Below, in pieces: positions 1,762-31,783 of a DNA stretch of 34,331 nt; within the stretch, counting starts at the first letter, position 1, and each line of letters begins with the position of its first letter. A program made the translations under genes and the position numbers. A model generated the notes under the pieces. The model ran no database searches and was not told the origin of the DNA. It saw nothing but the letters and a program-made list of their open reading frames with translations. Origin of the DNA: a virus; IMG/VR virus record IMGVR_UViG_3300046740_000325, positions 1 to 34,331 of that record; one strand, written 5' to 3'.

Positions 1762-2154
1762 CTATCGCCAGTCGCTCTCGTCCCAGTTTCCCTTGCCGGC
1801 GTTGCAATCGTCGCACAGCACTTGGAGGTTCCAGGGATCGAGGGCGAGGTCGGGTCTCCGCTTGCGCGGTTGGATGTGGTCAACATTAAGCCGGATGCCG
1901 TCTGCCGGCGAGGCGCCACAGCACTCGCATCGGCCGCTCGCCATCCGCAGCGCCTTGTAGCGCAAGGTGCGCCACGCGTATGTCTTCAGGAACTCGTTGG
2001 ATCGGACATCGACCCCCTCAATCAGCCGCTGTGTTGGAGGCGGAACAGAGGGTAGATCGATGCGGAAAATTGAGCCACCTCGGGCTCGTGAGCACGCCTT
2101 GGCTCTAGCTATCCCAGCCCTAAGGCTTCGCCCCCCCGCGGGGACAGCGCTCAT
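1762..2154 (-). CDS. HNH endonuclease
   Basis: A 130-residue protein with a complete HNH fold at residues ~70-130: a first cysteine knuckle (C76, C78, C79), the V-D92-H93-I motif, N109 in D-P-W-N-L-Q-V-L-C, and a second knuckle C114-D-D-C117 followed by N-A-G-K-G-N-W-D-E-S-D-W-R, a very typical ending. These nucleases nick or cut DNA with one metal ion and in many tailed phages help the terminase at the packaging site. The N-terminal ~45 residues are Arg/Ala-rich, but no better in-frame start is visible before the conserved F-L-K-x-Y-x-W-R segment, so ATG 2154 is used. It is transcribed opposite to the terminase genes and diverges from the array and genes at 2260-3015. Confidence 0.85.
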   Translation of the reverse strand: MSAVPAGGRSLRAGIARAKACSRARGGSIFRIDLPSVPPPTQRLIEGVDVRSNEFLKTYAWRTLRYKALRMASGRCECCGASPADGIRLNVDHIQPRKRRPDLALDPWNLQVLCDDCNAGKGNWDESDWR

Positions 2155-3029: not shown

Positions 3030-3386
3030 GGGTTCTCGCAACTCGTCGGGCTCGCGCCTCGTATTGGGTTCACGCAAGACATTGGGCTCGCGCACCGTTT
3101 GGGGTTCTCGCTCTTACTAGGGCTCGCGCCGTCGATCCGGGTTCGCGCAAATGCTTGGGCTCGCGCGCGTACTATAATAAGCGCGCGCAGGTGGTAGGGT
3201 TCACGCCGGTGACTGGGCTCGCGCACTCAATAGGGTTCACGCATTCAATGGGGCTCGCGCTTCGCTTTGGGTTCTCGCCCCTTTTAGGGCTCGCGCCTAT
3301 CGTAGGGTTCCCGCTACCCGATGGGCTCGCGCATTCAATGGGGCTCTCGCAAGACATTGGGCTCGCGCTATCTCCCGGGTTCACGC
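3030..3386 (+). repeat. 18-bp-periodic repeat array 2 (GGGCTCGCGC / GGGTTCACGC)
   Basis: Nineteen clear 10-bp units start at 3030, 3048, 3066, 3084, 3102, 3120, 3139, 3157, 3197, 3215, 3233, 3251, 3269, 3287, 3305, 3323, 3341, 3359 and 3377. All steps are exactly 18 bp except one of 19 (3120 to 3139) and one 40-bp gap holding a decayed unit. GGGTTC(A/T/G/C)CGC and GGGCTCGCGC alternate, giving a 36-bp super-period, broken once (3323-3359). The 8-bp spacers mostly differ, but AAGACATT occurs twice (3076, 3351) and ATTCAATG twice (3243, 3333). The array fills the gap between the convergent genes ending at 3015 and 3393. Confidence 0.9.
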
Positions 3387-3392
3387 ACCTCT

Positions 3393-4313
3393 TTAGGCTG
3401 GGTAGGGCGGTGGAATATAGGTGGTGTGGCCCTGGTGCGCGATCGGAAAGGGCGCCACGATCGGCCGCCCGAGCTTCAATAGCCACACCTCGTTCATGTG
3501 GCTGAGGAAGAGCTTGACCGCATAGCGCCGGGCCCGGCCGTCGATCTGCGACGGCGGCAGGTGGCCGGCGGCATAGTGCCCGTAGGCCTGCGTCTTCTTG
3601 CCGACCCGCGGCAGCCATAAGGCGGCATCGGCGGTGCGCTTGCCGGTGTCCGACATCATCTGCTCAAACACCTTGCGCTCGCGGTAGAGGTGGCCGTAGT
3701 AGCAGTCTTCGCGCGCCGCCAGCTTCATGAAACTCTGTCCGGCATGCCAGCACAGCGTCTTCAAACGCTGGTTGTAGGGTCGCTTTTCGCCGCTCTTCCA
3801 GGCCTTCTGACCATCGGCGGCGAGCCCGGCGAAGGCGTAGACCCGGCCGGCCGTGGGTCGCGGCCCCTCGAGGTTGGCCAGCATGCCGGCGGCGATGACC
3901 GGGCCGATGCCGACGATCTGGCGCATCCACTCGCCCATGACGTGCTCTTTTGTGTAGGCGTCGAGCGCGCGCTTGATCTGGCCTTCCAAGATCCGCGATT
4001 GCTCGAAGAGCCAGTCGACCAGGATGTGCGGCTCGGGCACCGGGTCCTCGGCTTCGCCGATCTTGACGCCTTTTTCGAGCGCGAGGGCCTGGGAATGGGC
4101 GCGCTTGCGGTTTTCTTGAAACGTGTAGTAGGCATCGACCAGGAACCGCGCCTCCTTGGGTCCCATGGTCCCGGCCGCCTGGAGGAGATCGCGGCTGAGC
4201 CGCCCGACGGCGAACTTGCTGGCCGCGCGCTCGGTGATCTCGATAACCTCGCCGCAAGACGGACACTCGATTTTTTCGTCGTCGTCATCGTCGACATAGG
4301 CCGCAAATGCCAT
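3393..4313 (-). CDS. Orphan IS110-type C-terminal (Transposase_20-like) domain protein
   Basis: A 306-residue protein. Residues 7-21 hold an acidic run and one CPSC. Residues 130-200 resemble the C-terminal domain of IS110/IS116-family transposases: helix-hairpin-helix G-I-G-P-V-I-A-A-G-M-L-A-N-L-E (135-149), Y-A-F-A-G-L (159-164) and K-S-G-E-K-R-P (173-179), where S174 is placed like the Ser of the SG motif. The N-terminal RuvC-like DEDD nuclease domain of those transposases is missing. The C-terminal ~60 residues (A-V-K-L-F-L-S-H...P-I-A-H-Q-G-H-T-x-Y-I-P-P-P) are a phage-type tail I have seen in hypothetical proteins. ATG 4313 follows CCGGAGG at a good distance. It is probably a DNA-binding phage protein, not an active transposase; no terminal inverted repeats were found. 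Confidence 0.6.
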   Translation of the reverse strand: MAFAAYVDDDDDEKIECPSCGEVIEITERAASKFAVGRLSRDLLQAAGTMGPKEARFLVDAYYTFQENRKRAHSQALALEKGVKIGEAEDPVPEPHILVDWLFEQSRILEGQIKRALDAYTKEHVMGEWMRQIVGIGPVIAAGMLANLEGPRPTAGRVYAFAGLAADGQKAWKSGEKRPYNQRLKTLCWHAGQSFMKLAAREDCYYGHLYRERKVFEQMMSDTGKRTADAALWLPRVGKKTQAYGHYAAGHLPPSQIDGRARRYAVKLFLSHMNEVWLLKLGRPIVAPFPIAHQGHTTYIPPPYPA

Positions 4314-4356
4314 TGGGGTGCCTCCGGTTTGCCGGTGTTTCAAGGGTATGTTGCCT

Positions 4357-5064
4357 ATGACAACCGATGCTGGCAACCCGGTTTCTAATTCAGACGCGGA
4401 GCCGCTCTCGACACCGGTCGCCGGCCCCCTCGCCGTCACGCCGCTCTATGTGACGGCGGCCGATCTCCTCGTGAAGTGGGACGATCCGGGGGCGACGTGG
4501 CGCTCGGTGCCGGTCCCGGCCGGCGCGACAGGACCGGCAGGACCAGCCGGCGCCGCTGGCGCCTTTTCTCTGATCGCGACAAGGACCGCCTCCGGCAGCG
4601 CCGATCTGCAATGGACCGGCTTGACCGGCAAAAAGTGGAAGATAATTGGCAATCTGCTCCTCCCTGCCACCAACTCCGCCCAGCTCCTTTTCCAGTATGG
4701 CACCGGCACCGGCCCGACATGGCACGGCACCGGCTACTACCAGGGCGGCCGGTTTGACGGCCTCACCGTATCGGCAAGCGCCGCCTTTCAGCAGAGCAAC
4801 CAGAACGCCTTTAAGGAACCGATACAGCAAACCAACGCCCAGCAAGGCGCCAGCTTTGACCTTACCTTCGAGACAGACAACGCGACCTTTCTGATGGTCC
4901 AAGGCATCATCAAACGTCTGCCGCGACACCGATCAACACACCTTCTCTATGTATTTCGGCGGCGTTGTCGGAAATTCGGCCCAGCTTACCGCGCTGCGCG
5001 TCCTAGAAACCGCGGGCAACATAACATCGGGCGAAGCATCGCTTTACTCGATCTCTTAGGGTGA
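4357..5064 (+). CDS. Fibre/virion beta-sandwich protein with collagen-like segment; probable frameshift
   Basis: The N-terminal ~65 residues lead to a short collagen-like run (G-A-T-G-P-A-G-P-A-G-A-A-G) and then to a domain typical of phage tail and fibre proteins (L-Q-W-T-G-L-T...L-F-Q-Y-G-T-G). The zero frame ends at 5064 with an Arg-rich tail unlike the rest. From about 4910 the +1 frame instead reads S-N-V-C-R-D-T-D-Q-H-T-F-S-M-Y-F-G-G, continuing to ...I-T-S-G-E-A-S-L-Y-S-I-S with stop TAG at 5057-5059, the normal end of this domain. One extra base (or two missing) around 4903-4915 explains this. ATG 4357 is preferred (AAGGG ten bases upstream); ATG 4348 is also in frame. It diverges from the IS110-like gene. 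Confidence 0.6.
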   Translation: MTTDAGNPVSNSDAEPLSTPVAGPLAVTPLYVTAADLLVKWDDPGATWRSVPVPAGATGPAGPAGAAGAFSLIATRTASGSADLQWTGLTGKKWKIIGNLLLPATNSAQLLFQYGTGTGPTWHGTGYYQGGRFDGLTVSASAAFQQSNQNAFKEPIQQTNAQQGASFDLTFETDNATFLMVQGIIKRLPRHRSTHLLYVFRRRCRKFGPAYRAARPRNRGQHNIGRSIALLDLLG

Positions 5065-5090: not shown

Positions 5091-5152
5091 ACTCCTGACT
5101 GAGGGGCTCATCCGCCTGCCGCACCCCCGTCGTGAACCGAATGGTCAGGAGT
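5091..5152 (+). promoter_or_regulatory. Inverted repeat that could hide the ribosome site of the 5160 gene
   Basis: ACTCCTGAC (5091-5099) is the exact reverse complement of GTCAGGAGT (5144-5152), with a 44-nt loop. The right arm contains AGGAG (5147-5151), the ribosome site of the ATG at 5160, so pairing would block translation initiation. No alternative pairing partner was established, so regulation is an inference. Confidence 0.35.
5099..5123 (+). repeat. Duplicate of the terminase gene 5' end
   Basis: These 25 bp match 5395-5419 inside the large terminase gene at 23 of 25 positions (CTGAGGG..CTCATCCG.CTGCCGCA). In the terminase the stretch encodes E-G-L-I-R-L-P-H. The copy stands 276 bp before the real start and is cut off by frame and sequence divergence, so it looks like a scar of insertion of the gene at 5160-5378. 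Confidence 0.6.
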
Positions 5153-5159
5153 GTGACCG

Positions 5160-5378
5160 ATGAGCGATTATTCAAGGATGATGGAGGGCACGCGCGGCGT
5201 TGCCGCCAGCCCGGTGGGGTACGCCATTGCGGCATTGCCGGTTGGCCCACCGGCGGGATCGATTGCCTTTGTCACCGATCAGTTGACCAGCCCTTGCGCC
5301 AAGGGCGCCGCGCCGGTGGCGGGCGGGGCGGTGCGATGCCTCGTCTTTTATAATGGCGCGGCCTGGGTCGGCGCCTGA
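5160..5378 (+). CDS. MSDY-leader protein 1 (short virion-type protein)
   Basis: A 72-residue protein. Residues 1-12 (MSDYSRMMEGTR) belong to a leader shared by five genes here. The body (A-F-V-T-D-Q-L...A-G-G-A-V-R-C-L-V-F-Y-N-G-A-A-W-V) matches a short beta module often found at the end of phage fibre or head-associated proteins. AGGAG nine bases upstream fixes ATG 5160, although that site lies in an inverted repeat. It ends three bases before the terminase start. Function is unknown; a minor virion or decoration protein is a reasonable guess. Confidence 0.6.
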   Translation: MSDYSRMMEGTRGVAASPVGYAIAALPVGPPAGSIAFVTDQLTSPCAKGAAPVAGGAVRCLVFYNGAAWVGA

Positions 5379-5381
5379 CGC

Positions 5382-6713
5382 GTGCCGCCTGCGGCTGAGG
5401 GCCTCATCCGGCTGCCGCATAACGGCTGGCAGCCGCGCCCCTACCAGCGCCCGCTGTGGCGCTATTTGGAGCAAGGCGGGAAGCGCGCCGTGGCGATCTG
5501 GCACCGCCGCGCCGGGAAGGACGAGGTCTGCCTCCATTGGGGGGCGGTCGCCGCGCACGTTCGGGTCGGCTGCTATTGGCACATGCTGCCCGAGGCCAAT
5601 CAGGCAAGGAAAGCGGTATGGGACGCGGTCAACCCGCACACCGGCCTGCGACGCATCAACGAGACCTTCCCGCGCGAGCTGCGCGAAAGCACCCGCGAGA
5701 CCGATATGGCGATCCGCTTCAAGAGCGGGAGCCTGTGGCAGCTGGTCGGTAGCGACAACTATAATAGTCTGGTCGGCTCGCCGCCGATCGGCGTTGTGTT
5801 CTCCGAGTTCGCCCTGGCCGACCCATCGGCCTGGGGCTACCTGCGCCCGATCCTGGCCGAGAACGGCGGCTGGGCACTCTTTATTACAACGCCGCGCGGG
5901 CGCAACCATGCCTCGACCTTTTATGAGGCGGCGCTTCAGGACCCGACATGGTTTGCCGAGCGTCTGCCGGCGACCCAGACGCCGGTCTTTTCCGCGGAGC
6001 AGCTCGAGATCGAGCATCGCGAATTGATCCGCGAATACGGCCCCGACGACGGCGAGGCGCGCTACCGCCAGGAGTATCTGGTCTCCTTTGATGCCGGCGT
6101 CATGGGCTCCTACTACGGCACGATGATGGAGGCCGCGGTCGCCGAGAAGCGCGTCACAAAAGTCCTGCACGACCCGACGCTGCCGGTCCACACCGCGTGG
6201 GATTTGGGGATCGGCGACGCGACGGCGATCTGGTGCATCCAGCTGGTCGGCCACGAGGTGCGCTTCATCGATTATATTGAAAACAGCGGGGTCGGGCTCG
6301 ACTGGTATGCCAAGGAGCTCGACAAGCGCGCCTGGAAGTGGGGCGAGCACGTCCTGCCGCACGACAGTGAGGCGCGCGAATTGGGCACCGGGAGGAGCCG
6401 GATCGAGGTCCTGCGCGGGCTCGGGTTCCACCGGACGCTCGTCATCCCGGCCCAGCGCATCGAGGACGGGGTCAACGCGGTCCGCATGGTGCTGCCGCGG
6501 GCGTGGTTCGATAGTGAGAAATGCGCCCGCGGCGTCAGCGCGCTGCAAAATTATCGCCGGTCGTGGAACGAGGCGGCGCGGACCTATAGCGATCGCCCGC
6601 TGCACGACTGGACGAGCCACGCCGCCGACGCGCTCAGGTATTGGGCGCTCTCCAGCGTGCGCAACGCCGGCAGCGCCCGGCCGATCAAGTATCCCGATCT
6701 GGCGGTGGTGTGA
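5382..6713 (+). CDS. terL: Phage terminase large subunit
   Basis: A 443-residue packaging motor and nuclease. The ATPase half shows an adenine/Q-type lead (W-Q-P-R-P-Y-Q), a Walker A of the R-R-A-G-K-D form (H41-E48), a Walker B I-G-V-V-F-S-E with catalytic E142, and the coupling motif T-T-P-R-G-R-N (169-175). The nuclease half shows D274 (A-W-D-L-G-I-G-D), an acidic site near D328 (P-H-D-S-E) and D416 in S-H-A-A-D-A-L-R-Y, the usual RNase H-like triad positions. Length is normal. It pumps DNA into the prohead through the portal and cuts it. GTG 5382 follows the previous stop directly; no strong ribosome site is seen, so coupling is likely. The Ser in place of Asp before the Walker B Glu also occurs in related phage terminases, as I recall. 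Confidence 0.95.
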   Translation: MPPAAEGLIRLPHNGWQPRPYQRPLWRYLEQGGKRAVAIWHRRAGKDEVCLHWGAVAAHVRVGCYWHMLPEANQARKAVWDAVNPHTGLRRINETFPRELRESTRETDMAIRFKSGSLWQLVGSDNYNSLVGSPPIGVVFSEFALADPSAWGYLRPILAENGGWALFITTPRGRNHASTFYEAALQDPTWFAERLPATQTPVFSAEQLEIEHRELIREYGPDDGEARYRQEYLVSFDAGVMGSYYGTMMEAAVAEKRVTKVLHDPTLPVHTAWDLGIGDATAIWCIQLVGHEVRFIDYIENSGVGLDWYAKELDKRAWKWGEHVLPHDSEARELGTGRSRIEVLRGLGFHRTLVIPAQRIEDGVNAVRMVLPRAWFDSEKCARGVSALQNYRRSWNEAARTYSDRPLHDWTSHAADALRYWALSSVRNAGSARPIKYPDLAVV

Positions 6714-6725
6714 GGGGGCGGTGGC

Positions 6726-7016
6726 ATGAGCGATTACGCGCGGCTGATGGAAGAGGAGCGCGCGCGCGGGGCGGGTCCGGGGGGAAACCAGGGCGGCGGG
6801 GCGTGGGGCGAGCCGCCCGCGGCAGCGCCGGTGGCGATCGGGCCAGTTGGGGAGGCTGCTATGGGGAAGAACACCGTCACCGGGCTGCGCGACGGCGAGC
6901 CCTATACGATCGAGATCGATGTCGATGAGGCCGAGATCGAGCGCCGCCGGCTGGCCGCCGAGGCGCGCCGGGCGGCTCGGGATGCCCCAGCCGAACCTCC
7001 CGATCGGTCGGGCTGA
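6726..7016 (+). CDS. MSDY-leader protein 2 (disordered, charged)
   Basis: A 96-residue protein with the shared leader (MSDYARLMEEER), then a Gly/Pro/Ala-rich low-complexity stretch (residues ~13-42), then G-K-N-T-V-T-G-L-R-D-G-E-P-Y-T-I-E-I-D-V, and finally an Ala/Arg/Glu-rich helix. Likely a flexible virion-associated or assembly protein. Its TGA overlaps the ATG of the next MSDY gene at 7016. No family is recognised beyond the leader. Confidence 0.55.
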   Translation: MSDYARLMEEERARGAGPGGNQGGGAWGEPPAAAPVAIGPVGEAAMGKNTVTGLRDGEPYTIEIDVDEAEIERRRLAAEARRAARDAPAEPPDRSG

Positions 7017-7669
7017 TGAGCGATTATGGGCGGCTCGTCGAGGAGACCCGCGACGCCGTCAGGCTGGCGGGCGTCACGATCACCTCGCCCCTCAGTTTCA
7101 TCGACCTGACGCTGCCGGACGGCTATTCCAGCTTCAAGCTGACGGCCAATCTGGTCTTTTCCGCAGGGAGCGACCTCAGTGCAATAGCCTTTGCGCTCAG
7201 TGCCGATCATGGGCTGACGTTCTTCAATGATCACGTGAATTACGACAGCTACCTTCAGGCTGGTTTTACAAAGCGCATGGTTCGTGGTGCAGCGAACGTA
7301 CCGCCCGACGCTGTTTTCTACACAGATGGCCTCTTTGCATTTACCGGCGGCCAAAAAATAGGGACGGCGGGCTCGTTGGAGGTGACGCTTTTCCAATCAA
7401 TCCCACCGAATGCTTGGGCATACGGCACGTTTATTGCCGGGTGCCGGAGGTTTGACGAAACGGTCGGGACATTGGAATATGACACCGGTGTTTTTCAAAT
7501 AAATGAAGCACCCATCGTGTCGATAGGAACACCGCGCAAGGTCAATTTGATGAGAATGCTGCCCTACGGCAACGATGACTGTAACCCGCCGACGTCGGGC
7601 ATCACGATTACCAAGGGGTCCTTATGTTCTCTTGGGAATACCGGCTTCATGAGGAGAAAACCCAGATGA
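7016..7669 (+). CDS. MSDY-leader protein 3, fibre-type beta domain; altered C-terminus
   Basis: A 217-residue protein with leader MSDYGRLVEETRD and a domain like the next gene: F-I-D-L-T-L-P, S-S-F-K-L, T-F-F-N-D-H-x-N-Y-D-S-Y and L-P-Y-G-N-D-D-C-N-P-P-T-S. This is a tail/fibre-type beta sandwich, probably exposed on the virion. The neighbouring paralogue ends G-G-S-Y-V-L-S-G-V-P-S. Here the reading switches after T-K-G-S to an unrelated end (L-C-S-L-G-N-T-G-F-M-R-R-K-P-R), while the +1 frame reads Y-V-L-L-G-I-P-A-S then TGA. One extra T near 7620-7623 accounts for it. The extended frame overlaps the next ATG by four bases. Base content is lower in GC than the neighbouring terminase. Confidence 0.7.
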   Translation: MSDYGRLVEETRDAVRLAGVTITSPLSFIDLTLPDGYSSFKLTANLVFSAGSDLSAIAFALSADHGLTFFNDHVNYDSYLQAGFTKRMVRGAANVPPDAVFYTDGLFAFTGGQKIGTAGSLEVTLFQSIPPNAWAYGTFIAGCRRFDETVGTLEYDTGVFQINEAPIVSIGTPRKVNLMRMLPYGNDDCNPPTSGITITKGSLCSLGNTGFMRRKPR

Positions 7670-8268
7670 GCGATTACGGGCGGTTGGTCGAGCAGGCCCG
7701 CGATACCGCCAGACTGGGGAGCGGCATAATCACGTCACCGCAAGCCTTTATCGACCTGACGCTGCCACCTCAATTCTCGTCCTTCAAATTACTGATTAAT
7801 GCAATAACCCTCAGCGTCGCATCCAATCTTGTGCTGTCGGTCAGCTTGAATGGCGGGTCTACATTCATCAACGATCATACAAATTACGATAGCTATAGGG
7901 CAAACGGCGTAGCCATCAATAATGGCGCGCTAAACGCCCCAAATTCCTATTTCACCGATGCCGTGGCGGACCTTGGGCATCAGAGCGATACGGCGTCACC
8001 TTTTGGCATCAATGCTTCACTGGACATTTTCCCTGGCTCTCCTACGACGTTCTTTAATTTTCTGCTGCTCGGCGGCGCGCGAAATGGGGCGACCTGGGGG
8101 TTCGACGCTTTGTGGGAGGTCGTCAATCCGGCCGCCATCGTGCCTCCGGTGCTCGGCCGCGTGACCACCATTCGGCTGCAGCCCTATGGCAACGGCGACG
8201 TCAACCCGCCGACCTCGGCCGCTCGGATCACCGGCGGTTCCTATGTGCTTTCCGGCGTCCCTTCATGA
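7666..8268 (+). CDS. MSDY-leader protein 4, fibre-type beta domain
   Basis: A 200-residue tandem paralogue of the preceding gene. Shared blocks are the leader (MSDYGRLVEQARD), F-I-D-L-T-L-P, F-S-S-F-K-L, G-G-S-T-F-I-N-D-H-T-N-Y-D-S-Y, and I-R-L-Q-P-Y-G-N-G-D-V-N-P-P-T-S. It ends normally with G-G-S-Y-V-L-S-G-V-P-S. ATG 7666 is chosen because the leader begins there and a GAGGAG ribosome site lies upstream, although the frame stays open to 7624. It is likely a minor tail or fibre protein; two diverged copies could give alternative receptor or glycan binding, which is an inference. Confidence 0.75.
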   Translation: MSDYGRLVEQARDTARLGSGIITSPQAFIDLTLPPQFSSFKLLINAITLSVASNLVLSVSLNGGSTFINDHTNYDSYRANGVAINNGALNAPNSYFTDAVADLGHQSDTASPFGINASLDIFPGSPTTFFNFLLLGGARNGATWGFDALWEVVNPAAIVPPVLGRVTTIRLQPYGNGDVNPPTSAARITGGSYVLSGVPS

Positions 8269-8281
8269 GAGGAGAAACGGC

Positions 8282-8710
8282 ATGAGCGATTTTTCACGAT
8301 TGATGGAGGCGGCGCGCGATGCCGGGGCAGCAATCTCGGCGCCGGAGGTGGTCGACCTCCCGACGATCACCGGGACCGGGCTCGTCGGCGAGGTGCTGAC
8401 CTGTGGGCCGGGTGTGTGGAACCATGCGCCGACCGATTTTGCCTATGAATGGCGCAGCGACATGGCGCCGATCGCCCCCGGCGACGTCTACACGGTCGCC
8501 GCGGGCGATGTCGGGCACAGCCTCGACTGCTCGGTGACGGCGACAAACGCCGCCGGCTCGGGCACCGCCGTCTCGGCCGCGCTCGTCGTCACCGGCACGC
8601 GCGAGGCGCCGGGCGATCCGCCGCCCGAAGCGCGGGTCGAGGCAAAGGAGAAGGAGCCGGCGCCCGCTCCGGCGCCCGCACCGGCGCACGAGCGCAGTAC
8701 CCGCCGATGA
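8282..8710 (+). CDS. MSDY-leader protein 5 with Ig-like domain
   Basis: A 142-residue protein: leader MSDFSRLMEAARD, then one bacterial Ig-like repeat (residues ~24-102) with the usual marks G-x-V-G-E-V-L-T-C, W, A-Y-E-W-R-S-D, Y-T-V-A-A-G-D-V-G-H-S-L-D-C-S-V-T-A-T-N-A-A-G-S-G. Such domains on virions commonly bind cell-surface sugars. A Pro-Ala-Pro-Ala tail follows (P-A-P-A-P-A-P-A-H). GAGGAG upstream fixes the ATG at 8282. The stop overlaps the next start (ATGA 8707-8710). Confidence 0.8.
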   Translation: MSDFSRLMEAARDAGAAISAPEVVDLPTITGTGLVGEVLTCGPGVWNHAPTDFAYEWRSDMAPIAPGDVYTVAAGDVGHSLDCSVTATNAAGSGTAVSAALVVTGTREAPGDPPPEARVEAKEKEPAPAPAPAPAHERSTRR

Positions 8711-8925
8711 GCATGGCCGATGCGATGCGCCAGATGGCCGTCGAGAAGCGCGTCCAAGACCTCGAGGCGCGGGTCGCCGGGCTCGAGGGCCTCCTGGCGC
8801 GGGTCGCTGAGATCGAGGAACGGATGGCTGGGATGAAGCAGCAGGCTAGCATGCTGCTGGGCCAGCTCAACTCCCTGCGCGGCCCCAGAGTACCCGATGG
8901 TGACAGGAATGCCGCCGCTCGATAG
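8707..8925 (+). CDS. Small coiled-coil protein
   Basis: A 72-residue protein; residues ~10-60 form an uninterrupted heptad-type helix (V-x-D-L-E-A-R-V-A-G-L-E-G-L-L-A-R-V-A-E-I-E-E-R-M). It is a likely oligomerising partner of the portal or of the MSDY proteins. It begins inside the previous stop and its 3' end overlaps the portal start by 29 bp, so all three are translated from one message. No named family. Confidence 0.65.
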   Translation: MSMADAMRQMAVEKRVQDLEARVAGLEGLLARVAEIEERMAGMKQQASMLLGQLNSLRGPRVPDGDRNAAAR

Positions 8926-11446
8926 CGGGCTCTTCGCGCGCAGCGGTTCCGGCGCAGCCGGTCGCGCCAGCGCATCCAACGGCCAGCGCGGTGGCTACGG
9001 CGCGACCCCGTCGGCCGGCATAACGCGGCGCGACCCCAAGAAGCTGATGAAGGTCGACGAACTGCAGGACATCATCCGGCGCGAGCTGGCGCAGGCGATC
9101 GGCGCCGACAACGGTCAGCTGGCGACCGAGCGCCAGGAGCTGATGAAGTACTACCAGGGCGGCGAGTTCGCCGACCCGCCGCCGGGGCAGAACCGCTCCA
9201 AGGTCGTCATGCTGACGGTTCTGGAGACCGTCGAGTGGGTGCTGCCGGCGCTTCTGCGCATCTTTACCGCGTCCGATGCAATCGCCGAATTGGCGCCGAT
9301 CCGCACGACGATGACCCCGCCCCCGGCCCCGCCCGGGATGCCGCCGCCATTGGACCCCGAGGAGGCGGCGCGGCAGGCGACCGAGTACGTCAACCACGTC
9401 TTCAACGTCGACAACCCCGGGTTCCTGATCCTCCACGACTGGTTCAAGGACGGGCTCCTGCAGAAGTTGGGCTGGCTGAAGCGCTGGTGGAGTGAGGAGC
9501 AGATCCGTGAAACCAACACGTTCACCGGTCTGACCGAGGACGAGTATCGGGCCAAGCTGCAGGACCGCGGTTCTGACGCCAGCGCAGCGATCGAAATTCT
9601 GGAGGAGACCTCGTATCCGGCGCCGACGCTCTCCGGCATGGGCGAGGATGCGCCGCAGCCGATCGCCGCGGCCGGGTTGGGCACCGGACCGGCTGCTCCG
9701 CCGATGGGACCGGGTATGCCGGCCGCAGCCGGGAACGCCATGGGGGCCATGGGCATGCCGCCGGCCGCCGGTATCAGCTTGGCGGCGGCGATGGCGCCAC
9801 CCCCCAGGCCCATGCTCTACGACTGCAAGCTGCGGGTGACGCGCAAGCAGGGCCGCATCATGATCCGCAACGTGCCGCCCGAGGAGGTCCTCTTCTCGCG
9901 CCGTTCGACCCGCGACAATATCCCGTTCCTGTGCCACCGGCAGCCGGTGACGCGCACCCAGCTCCTCCAGCAGGGCTACGACGAGGAGTGCCTCGACCGG
10001 ATCAGCTGGAGCGACAGCGAGGATTATAATTCGGAGCGCCTGCAGCGCTTCCAGCCCGACGACGACATGCCGTTCACCAACGACCGCACCGATAAGCCGA
10101 TGCGGATGATCTGGGTCGAAGAGAATTACATCCAGGCCGATTATGACGGCGATGGTCTGGCCGAGCTCTTAAAGGTCACGACCGTCGATAATTCGGCCGT
10201 GATCCTAGAGAAGGACGGCAAGCCCGACATCGAGGAAGTCGACGAGGTTCCGTTTAACTTTTTGTGCCCGGTGCCGATGCCGCACAAGCTCGTTGGCATG
10301 TCGGTCGCCGACTTGGTGATGGACCTCCAGCGCATCAAATCGACGCTGATCCGGCAGATGCTCGACAACCTCTATTTGACGAATAACCCGAGGCACCTGG
10401 TGGTCGAGAGCGCTGCCACCGACGAGACCTACGAGGACCTCCTGACGAGCCGCCCAGGCGGGCTCGTGCGCGTGCGCACACCGGAGGGCGTGCAGCCGCT
10501 CGTTACCCCCTTTGTCGCCGAGAAGGCGCAGGGGCTCGTCGAGTACATGGACCAGACCGCCGAGGTGCGCACCGGCATCAGCCGGCACAACCAGGGGCTC
10601 GACCCTGATGCGCTCAACAAGACCGCGACCGGCGTCAATCTCATTCAGCAGGCCGCCGCGCAGCGCGTCGAGCTGATCGCCCGGATCTATGCCTTCAGCG
10701 TCGAGCAGATGGTGCGCGGCGTCCTCGGCCTCATCCGGAAGCACGCCCAGCAGGAGCGCATCATCCGGGTCTCGGGCGGGCCCCTGCAGACCGACCCGGC
10801 GCAGTGGAAGAACGATATGACGGTGGCGGTCAATGTCGGGCTCGGCACCGGCAACCGCGACCAGATCCTATCTCACCTGATGGCGCTCCTCGGGCTGCAG
10901 CAGCAGATTGTCGCCGCGCAGGGCGGGCTCTCAGGGCCCCTCGTCTACGCCAAGAACGTCTATGACACGGTGACGAAGATCAGCACCAACGCCGGCTTCA
11001 AGTCGAATTTTGCGGTGCAGGACCCGACCGTGCCGCCGCCGCCCTCGGTCACCGGGCCGCCACAGCCGCCCAAACCCGACCCGCAGCAGGCCCAGATGCA
11101 GGCTGTGGCGCAGCTCGAGATGCAGCTCGCCCAGCAGAAGGCGCAGACCGACGGCCAGCTCAACGAGGCCAAGGCCGCGCACCAGCAGCAGCTCAGCCAG
11201 CAAAAGGCCAACCAAGAGATGACGATCAACGCGCAGCAGGCCGAGCACCAGCGCGGGCTCGACGCCCAGAAGCTGCGCCAGCAATTCGCCCTCGAGCAGA
11301 CAAAGGCGCAGAACGATCTCGAGATCGAGCGGGTGCGCGCTCAGAATAGCCTCGAAATCGAGCGCCTGAAGGCGCAGAACGCCGCCGCGCTCGAGGTCCA
11401 CAAGGCCTCGCTCGCCGCCGCCGCAGAGCCGGCGGAGGGCTTCTGA
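8897..11446 (+). CDS. Portal protein (P22-like)
   Basis: An 849-residue protein forming the dodecameric ring through which DNA enters and leaves the head. The N-terminal ~35 residues are Gly/Ser-rich; the conserved body begins at K-K-L-M-K-V-D-E-L and includes S-K-V-V-M-L-T-V-L-E-T-V-E-W-V-L-P-A-L-L-R-I-F, P-P-E-E-V-L-F-S-R-R-S-T and T-A-T-G-V-N-L-I-Q-Q-A-A-A-Q-R, typical of P22-type podovirus portals. A Pro/Met/Ala-rich insert (residues ~245-305) interrupts the wing region. From ~720 the chain becomes a long Gln/Ala/Glu-rich coiled coil (Q-Q-A-Q-M-Q..., E-I-E-R-V-R-A-Q-N), corresponding in position to the C-terminal barrel of P22 portal. Length is larger than P22 gp1 (about 725). Confidence 0.9.
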   Translation: MVTGMPPLDSGLFARSGSGAAGRASASNGQRGGYGATPSAGITRRDPKKLMKVDELQDIIRRELAQAIGADNGQLATERQELMKYYQGGEFADPPPGQNRSKVVMLTVLETVEWVLPALLRIFTASDAIAELAPIRTTMTPPPAPPGMPPPLDPEEAARQATEYVNHVFNVDNPGFLILHDWFKDGLLQKLGWLKRWWSEEQIRETNTFTGLTEDEYRAKLQDRGSDASAAIEILEETSYPAPTLSGMGEDAPQPIAAAGLGTGPAAPPMGPGMPAAAGNAMGAMGMPPAAGISLAAAMAPPPRPMLYDCKLRVTRKQGRIMIRNVPPEEVLFSRRSTRDNIPFLCHRQPVTRTQLLQQGYDEECLDRISWSDSEDYNSERLQRFQPDDDMPFTNDRTDKPMRMIWVEENYIQADYDGDGLAELLKVTTVDNSAVILEKDGKPDIEEVDEVPFNFLCPVPMPHKLVGMSVADLVMDLQRIKSTLIRQMLDNLYLTNNPRHLVVESAATDETYEDLLTSRPGGLVRVRTPEGVQPLVTPFVAEKAQGLVEYMDQTAEVRTGISRHNQGLDPDALNKTATGVNLIQQAAAQRVELIARIYAFSVEQMVRGVLGLIRKHAQQERIIRVSGGPLQTDPAQWKNDMTVAVNVGLGTGNRDQILSHLMALLGLQQQIVAAQGGLSGPLVYAKNVYDTVTKISTNAGFKSNFAVQDPTVPPPPSVTGPPQPPKPDPQQAQMQAVAQLEMQLAQQKAQTDGQLNEAKAAHQQQLSQQKANQEMTINAQQAEHQRGLDAQKLRQQFALEQTKAQNDLEIERVRAQNSLEIERLKAQNAAALEVHKASLAAAAEPAEGF

Positions 11447-30377: not shown

Positions 30378-31433
30378 CTAAGCGACCGTTCTGGGTCTGA
30401 TCTGGGCCGCCCGGGCGAGCGCGATGCGGCGCCGATCGGCGTTCTTGGTGTAGTGGTCGGGCTGCTCGTGGGTCGACCACCCATACTTTGATTTGAGTTC
30501 GGTCGTCGTCCAGCCGGCCTCGGCGTCGGCGGTCGCCGCTGCCTTGCGGATGCCATGCGCGCCGAAGCCGGCGGGGACGCCTGCCAGCCGCGCCCACTTG
30601 GCGACCTGGGCGCTGAAGTAGTGCGCGTTATGGAACGGCAGCCCCTGCTCGGTGCGCAGCAGCACGCCGACGGTCTCGTCGAGCCCGCAGGCGGTGATCT
30701 CGTCCGCCAGCTCGGGCGTCAGGGCGGGGAACGATGCCTCGCCGGTCTTCTGCCGGCTGAACTCGACGAGCCCGCCGACGATGTTGCGGCGCGTCAACCG
30801 TATCGCGTCGCAGCACGCAGCGCCGGTGCCGTAGAGCATCTCGATCGCGAGGCGCTGCGGCGTGCCGCTCGGCCAGTACTCGCGATAGGCCTCGAGGTGC
30901 TCCGGCTCCCAGGTCGGGTAGCCGTCGGGGTTGGTGGAGGGCGGTGCCTTGAGCCCGAGCGTCGGGTCCTCCTCGATCTCGCCCGCGGCGATGCGGTCGG
31001 CGACCATCGCGCGAACCGCGACCAGCCAGTTGCGTGCGGCGCCCGGCGTGCCGGCCCGCAGGTACAGCATCCCGGCGAGCGCCTTGCGGGTCAGCTCGCC
31101 AAACGCCTCGTCGCCATACTCCCGCACCCACCCGTCTAGGAGGTAGCGCCGCGCGGCCTTCGTCGCGGGCTCCAGTTTCTGGAACGTATGGCTCCCCATG
31201 TAGCTGGTCACCGCGTCGCGGATCGTTCCCGCGCCGGTGGCCAGCTTTTTTTTGCGCCTGGGGGTCGGCGGCGTCGGGTTGTCGGCAGCTTGGGCGGCGG
31301 CGAGCGCTGCCTTGTAGGCGGCCATGAACGCGGGGCCGGACGGCTTGCCGTCGGGCAGCCTGACGCGCGCCTGCTTCTTGTACCGCAGGTAGTTATACCC
31401 GTCGAAGCTTTGAACGTACTGTAACTTGTTCAT
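30378..31433 (-). CDS. int: Tyrosine recombinase / integrase
   Basis: A 351-residue site-specific recombinase. The N-terminal part carries an arm/core-binding region (F-M-A-A-Y-K-A-A-L-A, then the helical domain 70-160). In the catalytic domain I see the beta-hairpin Lys K229 (R-Q-K-T), H293-G-I-R296, W319 in Y-G-W-S in place of the second His, and the nucleophile Y328 (D-H-Y-T-K). The first catalytic Arg, expected in T-G-x-R, is absent: the segment reads T203-G-A-A-C-C-D-A-I-R-L. GGAGAGG before ATG 31433 fixes the start; the open frame further upstream is not used. It should integrate phage DNA into the host chromosome, with attP probably in the gap at 30227-30377 or just upstream. Confidence 0.85.
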   Translation of the reverse strand: MNKLQYVQSFDGYNYLRYKKQARVRLPDGKPSGPAFMAAYKAALAAAQAADNPTPPTPRRKKKLATGAGTIRDAVTSYMGSHTFQKLEPATKAARRYLLDGWVREYGDEAFGELTRKALAGMLYLRAGTPGAARNWLVAVRAMVADRIAAGEIEEDPTLGLKAPPSTNPDGYPTWEPEHLEAYREYWPSGTPQRLAIEMLYGTGAACCDAIRLTRRNIVGGLVEFSRQKTGEASFPALTPELADEITACGLDETVGVLLRTEQGLPFHNAHYFSAQVAKWARLAGVPAGFGAHGIRKAAATADAEAGWTTTELKSKYGWSTHEQPDHYTKNADRRRIALARAAQIRPRTVA

Positions 31434-31602
31434 CGACCAGCCTCTCCAGAGAGTTGCCGCTTGGCGGCGCAGCCTTGTTGCTGCCACCAACATATATGAC
31501 AATCTTGCCCTCTCGATCAACCTCGATGCGTGCGACATTTTCGCCAGCGTTTTTCGCAGCTTTGACAAACCTCGTGACGTCACGTTGCCGAGGTAGGGCC
31601 AT
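31393..31602 (-). CDS. Small protein upstream of integrase
   Basis: A 69-residue protein: P-R-Q-R-D-V-T-R-F-V-K-A-A-K-N-A-G-E-N-V-A-R-I-E-V-D-R-E-G-K-I-V-I-Y-V-G-G. This pattern (helix, then A-R-I-E-V-D-x-x-G-K-I) is very common directly before integrase genes in alphaproteobacterial prophages. Function is unknown; a role as excision or DNA-binding helper is inferred from position only. It overlaps the integrase start by 41 bp. Confidence 0.7.
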   Translation of the reverse strand: MALPRQRDVTRFVKAAKNAGENVARIEVDREGKIVIYVGGSNKAAPPSGNSLERLVDEQVTVRSKLRRV

Positions 31603-31783
31603 CGTCCTGCTCCTCCATTTTGCGGGCGCGCGCAAACGCGATGGCGCCGCGGTCGAGGGCCCGCTGGCGCTCCTCGGCGAGCACCTGCGACATGCGGCGG
31701 TGGCCCGGCAGCGGCAGGCCCGGCCACGTCGCCGCCCGGCCTGGGCCGGCCGCCCACTGCGGGATCGGAACCACATCAGGCAT
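31580..31783 (-). CDS. Small hypothetical phage protein
   Basis: A 67-residue protein with V-V-P-I-P-Q-W at the N-terminus and a basic helical second half (M-S-Q-V-L-A-E-E-R-Q-R-A-L-D-R-G-A-I-A-F-A-R-A-R-K-M-E-E-Q). It overlaps both neighbours slightly (23 bp downstream, 8 bp upstream), typical of this block. GAGGGG lies upstream of ATG 31783. No family recognised. Confidence 0.55.
   Translation of the reverse strand: MPDVVPIPQWAAGPGRAATWPGLPLPGHRRMSQVLAEERQRALDRGAIAFARARKMEEQDDGPTSAT

Follow-up and report, generated by a model that had tools for sequence, protein, structure and literature searches.

Five neighbouring genes of an uncultured phage have about 12 N-terminal residues in common, which raises the question of what this peptide does on proteins that otherwise differ. 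The genes lie in an IMG/VR virus record of 34,331 nucleotides (IMGVR_UViG_3300046740_000325; hereafter the window) that also carries terminase, SU10-type portal, scaffold, and major capsid genes. The original prediction was that the peptide is an address tag with exchangeable cargo.

Five neighbouring genes with a common leader

The motif MSD[YF]xR[LM][MV]E opens five ORFs whose bodies otherwise differ (Table 1), and the five predicted starts (5160, 6726, 7016, 7666, and 8282) proved exact in both their coordinates and their N-termini. A degenerate leader pattern has five sites in the whole window, all at these ORFs, and a reversed-pattern control yielded zero matches over the same sequence. 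The leader genes form a tightly packed, operon-like cluster on the plus strand in which neighbours overlap or abut: the 6726 and 7016 genes overlap at TGATG, the 7666 start lies within the ATGA at the end of the 7016 gene, and the 8282 gene overlaps the coiled-coil gene at 8707 through another ATGA. Plausible Shine-Dalgarno sequences accompany four of the five leader starts; the 7016 gene lacks one, but is positioned for translational coupling. Since their codons differ synonymously, the five leaders are not fresh copies of one another. A kinship between the leader and the N-terminus of the coiled-coil protein was also considered and was not supported by the comparison.

Table 1. Leader peptides, leader genes, and neighbouring genes of the window, with the two phage 7-7-1 genes used for comparison
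Feature	Coordinates	Strand	Basis
Leader peptide 1, MSDYSRMMEGTR	5160..5195	+	ORF start and motif match
72-aa leader gene 5' of terminase; body without relatives	5160..5378	+	
Terminase large subunit	5382..6713	+	PHROG 2, E 1.3e-23; PHROG 2472, E 1.2e-45
Leader peptide 2, MSDYARLMEEER	6726..6761	+	ORF start and motif match
96-aa leader gene; low-complexity first half, without family	6726..7016	+	
Leader peptide 3, MSDYGRLVEETR	7016..7051	+	ORF start and motif match
217-aa leader gene; G+C of body below that of the window	7016..7669	+	
Leader peptide 4, MSDYGRLVEQAR	7666..7701	+	ORF start and motif match
200-aa leader gene, paralogue of 7016	7666..8268	+	
Leader peptide 5, MSDFSRLMEAAR, helix 3-13 predicted	8282..8317	+	Motif match and model
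142-aa leader gene: helix, linker, Ig-like domain ~22-100, Pro/Ala-rich tail	8282..8710	+	
Small coiled-coil gene adjoining portal, kept also in leaderless relatives	8707..8925	+	
SU10-type portal protein	8897..11446	+	PF23899, E 7.5e-182
Phage 7-7-1 (L146), 28-aa 117A; ~28-residue N-terminus in common with protein 122, counterpart of the published capsid arm	3134-3220 (7-7-1)		
Phage 7-7-1 (L146), protein 122	5137-5799 (7-7-1)		

Several other ORFs of the window should be mentioned. A fibre-like ORF at 4360-5064 has a second shared N-terminus, as its first ~50 residues (STPVAGxLAVTPLY...WDD) are clade-conserved on different bodies. The C-terminal portion of this ORF is out of frame, and near 4920 the sensible frame carries on as DTDQHTFSMYFGGVVGNSAQLTALRVLETAGNITSGEASLYSIS, so the gene is probably frameshifted. 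Beside it on the minus strand is an IS110-type transposase-like ORF (3393-4439) that is barely over the Pfam cut-off, and an HNH endonuclease ORF is found at 1762-2154 (minus). An integrase-like ORF at 30378-31757 (minus), which falls under the Pfam cut-off (24 vs 27.1 bits), hints at a temperate phage.

Conservation of the leader among related phages

Relatives were retrieved from IMG/VR by portal similarity alone, with the leader playing no part, and 43 loci were scanned for a relaxed leader motif at ATG ORF starts. Over the 1.6 kb preceding the portal gene, the motif was present at 32 of 436 ORF starts, distributed over 21 of the 43 loci. Elsewhere in the same loci it was found at 0 of 3812 starts (0/2397 on the remaining plus strand and 0/1415 on the minus strand). 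The five shared starts are not chance. All 20 loci with a portal identity ≥62% and sufficient upstream DNA carry the leader, as does one locus at 48% portal identity (L029), while the other, more distant loci lack it. The clade consensus reads M-S-D-[FY]-[ASG]-R-[LMV]-[MQ]-E-x-A-R. Pattern scans beyond the clade returned clade members and scattered unrelated proteins, and no portal relative was found among prophages in cultured genomes. An apparent full-length match in Sinorhizobium phage phiM12 was rejected as a leader, being located inside a long GDSL-type protein.

Two leader genes were found in 11 loci, and in six of these 11 the two bodies are unrelated. In L012, L014, L015, L016, L025, and L026, a single Ig-like leader gene is followed by one encoding a flexible chain of 53-77 aa; the same pair occurs in L115, a locus retrieved with the leader pattern rather than via the portal. 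L017, L020, L023, and L024 have tandem Ig genes that are paralogous to each other. It should also be noted that L012 has an extra 186-aa ORF (5155-5715) between its terminase and leader genes, and no counterpart was noticed in the other listed loci.

The leader has a dN/dS of ~0.14 clade-wide and of 0.24 among the five window copies, and its synonymous sites are close to saturated. Given the low dN/dS and this near-saturation, what has been preserved is the peptide: the leader is not a recent copy, nor does it serve as a DNA start signal. For the 7016 and 7666 proteins and their relative in L007, leader identity is 85-92% and body identity is 36-42%. The notion of an address tag with exchangeable cargo is supported by clade-wide conservation, by selection on the peptide, and by unrelated bodies within the same genome. 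The case that would have argued against it, a recombination remnant lacking conservation in other phages, is excluded within the clade.

Certain relatives have more in common at their N-termini than the 12 residues. The first 39 residues of two neighbouring L045 genes, one of which begins with GTG, agree at 23 positions, with one sequence leading into a Pro-rich chain and the other into an Ig body, and an L011 protein and a short L012 protein have 19 of 32 N-terminal residues in common on Ig and non-Ig bodies. The leader of some relatives therefore comes in a longer, helical version. A search of Pfam and PHROG with this long form (L021, L022, and L045) yielded no match to a known helical domain.

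Bodies behind the leader

The 8282 body had been predicted to be Ig-like, and this was corroborated by its structural model, a fold search, and its family profile. The AlphaFold model (mean pLDDT 84.5) begins with a helix at residues 3-13, which a linker connects to an Ig domain (~22-100), and ends in a loose tail rich in Pro and Ala; a fold search with this model returned Ig and FN3 domains. The hydrophobic leader residues 4, 7, 8, and 11 fall on one side of the predicted helix, forming a face that is no stronger than that of shuffled leaders. Against solved structures, the Ig family profile placed T5 pb10 first (8zvi, E 0.004), with further matches to the pb10 Ig domain (5lxk, E 0.025) and to T4 Hoc (E 0.046); the pb10 match is weak and confined to the Ig domain, a domain that tail proteins have as well (PHROG 1407). 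The L011 protein matches Hoc-like PHROGs. The same Ig family is present in other phages, among them those of Rhizobium and Rheinheimera, frequently within pectin-lyase-fold proteins, and the Ig domains of these other phages sit inside larger spike or fibre proteins. Alignments to them mostly start between residues 13 and 21 of the leader proteins, a position that marks the module edge. Sinorhizobium matches that begin at residue 1 are located inside a long protein.

The 7016 and 7666 bodies had been described as two related fibre domains; their mutual relatedness holds (39% body identity, with 85% in the leader), while the fibre label found no family, structure, or sequence match. The 7016 model was unusable (mean pLDDT 39) and was not interpreted, and relatives of the two bodies were found only in L007, with zero in the phage collection. 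Their G+C is 0.53 and 0.56, respectively, compared to 0.70 and 0.68 for the first 60 bases and 0.66 for the window, which fits with bodies acquired behind a resident tag. The 6726 body, predicted to be a disordered chain, is low-complexity in its first half only, and the 5160 body is without relatives in anything searched. A Pfam/PHROG-type search of the leader bodies (53-217 aa) detected no spike or lyase family.

A candidate docking peptide and its alternatives

From these comparisons, we lean slightly towards the leader being a short N-terminal peptide that docks on the virion, probably on the head, and thereby positions small proteins on its surface. The first ~12 residues would form an N-terminal docking helix, and every leader protein would be tethered to a single type of virion site, for which the outer head shell is the likeliest candidate. 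The body thus displayed or held would be replaceable and could be Ig-like, all-beta, or a chain that is short and flexible, and the genes between terminase and portal would constitute a head-operon cassette to which new bodies could be added behind the resident tag. We infer that the leader proteins are virion components, that the head is their site, and that they may function in surface binding or in reinforcement of the shell.

The arrangement had been thought to lack precedent, which did not hold up. In Agrobacterium phage Milano, the linking protein LP1 consists of an N-terminal strand and an Ig domain, its partner LP2 resembles this strand and is only 38 residues long, and residues 1-13 and 1-10, respectively, are docked on the capsid by cryo-EM (PMC10491603). 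Agrobacterium phage 7-7-1 has the same shared-arm linker design as Milano, again seen by cryo-EM, with one Ig-bearing and one short, nearly body-less linker (PMC12796354), and in its genome we recognized the shared arm in proteins 117A and 122 (MIKLNCRPLCQTPTASRLVSPPCFICRR vs MVSLDCRNTCAPAPASRLVQPPCFVCRD). In Milano and 7-7-1, the arm binds the capsid and the Ig domain protrudes. As in these phages, one N-terminal arm is common here to an Ig-bearing protein and a short one (L012, L014, L015, L016, L025, L026, and L115). However, their arm is extended and disulfide-bonded, whereas the leader is predicted to be helical and is free of cysteine; and two proteins bear the arm in those phages compared to as many as five here. 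Milano and 7-7-1 are also myophages (the latter with an HK97-type protease), while the leader belongs to SU10-portal phages and its genes are beside the portal gene. On the leader profile, 117A scores -32.8 and has no sequence similarity to the leader. The leader is unrelated in sequence to the Milano/7-7-1 arm, and so shares its design rather than belonging to the same family. T5 pb10 (PMC5292684), the best solved-structure match, similarly begins with a helical part ahead of an Ig domain, except that its capsid-binding part is a folded multi-helix domain of ~75 residues on one protein, compared to 12 residues on several proteins here. The 8282 model contains a single helix (residues 3-13) and no multi-helix domain of the pb10 type.

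Because the leader genes adjoin the portal gene and not the major capsid gene, the portal vertex or tail could also be the docking site. The main rival model is that the tag anchors small appendages at the portal vertex, the tail, or a first fibre, as in receptor-binding proteins of the K1-5/SP6/KP32 type, in which N-terminal peptides of 7-11 residues attach to an adapter or first spike (PMC6872550). These proteins likewise have a short N-terminal tag that is common to several members with exchangeable bodies, the leader genes are immediately 5' of the portal gene, and homologous Ig domains occur within Rhizobium phage tail spikes. However, the K1-5/SP6/KP32-type proteins are large depolymerase tail spikes, whereas the leader is found near the portal gene on small Ig, beta, or flexible bodies of 53-217 aa that are unlike large trimeric spikes. 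In addition, the Ig domain has its nearest solved relatives among head decoration proteins, and the phage already encodes a separate fibre (4360), whose N-terminus is conserved in its own right, as well as an S74 fibre (15519). We therefore consider this model unlikely, albeit the strongest of the alternatives.

A position inside the head seems improbable. The leader would in this case be a capsid-interior targeting sequence that packages cargo together with the scaffold, much like the ~10-residue N-terminal CTS of T4 internal proteins, which is also carried by divergent cargo and depends upon residues 4 and 7 (PMC9026906); the leader is aromatic and aliphatic at these same positions. However, the T4 CTS has no sequence similarity to the leader by profile, and its cargo is of a different type. 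The best internal protein, ipII, scores -6.5 and ipIII -12.6, compared to leave-one-out leader scores of at least 16.7, and the ipII score is reached by 2.4% of background ORF starts, such that neither is clearly above background. A search of six clade records, which may be incomplete, detected no HK97-type or T4-type prohead protease (S78/S77), while the T4 control was positive, and Ig domains are typical of virion surfaces.

More doubtful still is that the leader mediates assembly outside of the virion, among the small proteins themselves or with the coiled-coil protein at 8707: those leader loci having the stretch beside the portal do carry a coiled-coil gene there, but such genes are also present in leaderless relatives (L030, L034, L035, and L042) and their products bear no resemblance to the leader. 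Strongly disfavoured, and the least probable, is a functionless remnant of repeated gene duplication or a mere translation-start element, since the peptide is maintained at the amino acid level despite near-saturated synonymous sites, persists on unrelated bodies, and is more conserved than the bodies, even though 7016/7666 and the tandem Ig genes are indeed paralogues.

Returning to the docking peptide, its sequence and its use with up to five cargoes are new, while the principle is known. More tentatively, and with somewhat less than even confidence, it may be an undescribed universal surface-display tag of SU10-portal phages, addressing up to five proteins per genome to one type of site, with bodies swapped between phages. 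If so, another phage lineage would have arrived at the decoration scheme of Milano and 7-7-1, with its shared arm, by way of an unrelated peptide, and a single 12-residue tag would be able to load several different cargoes per particle. As a sequence tag, the leader is precise and testable, and it marks small proteins encoded between terminase and portal that lack annotation; it may also be a natural display tag.
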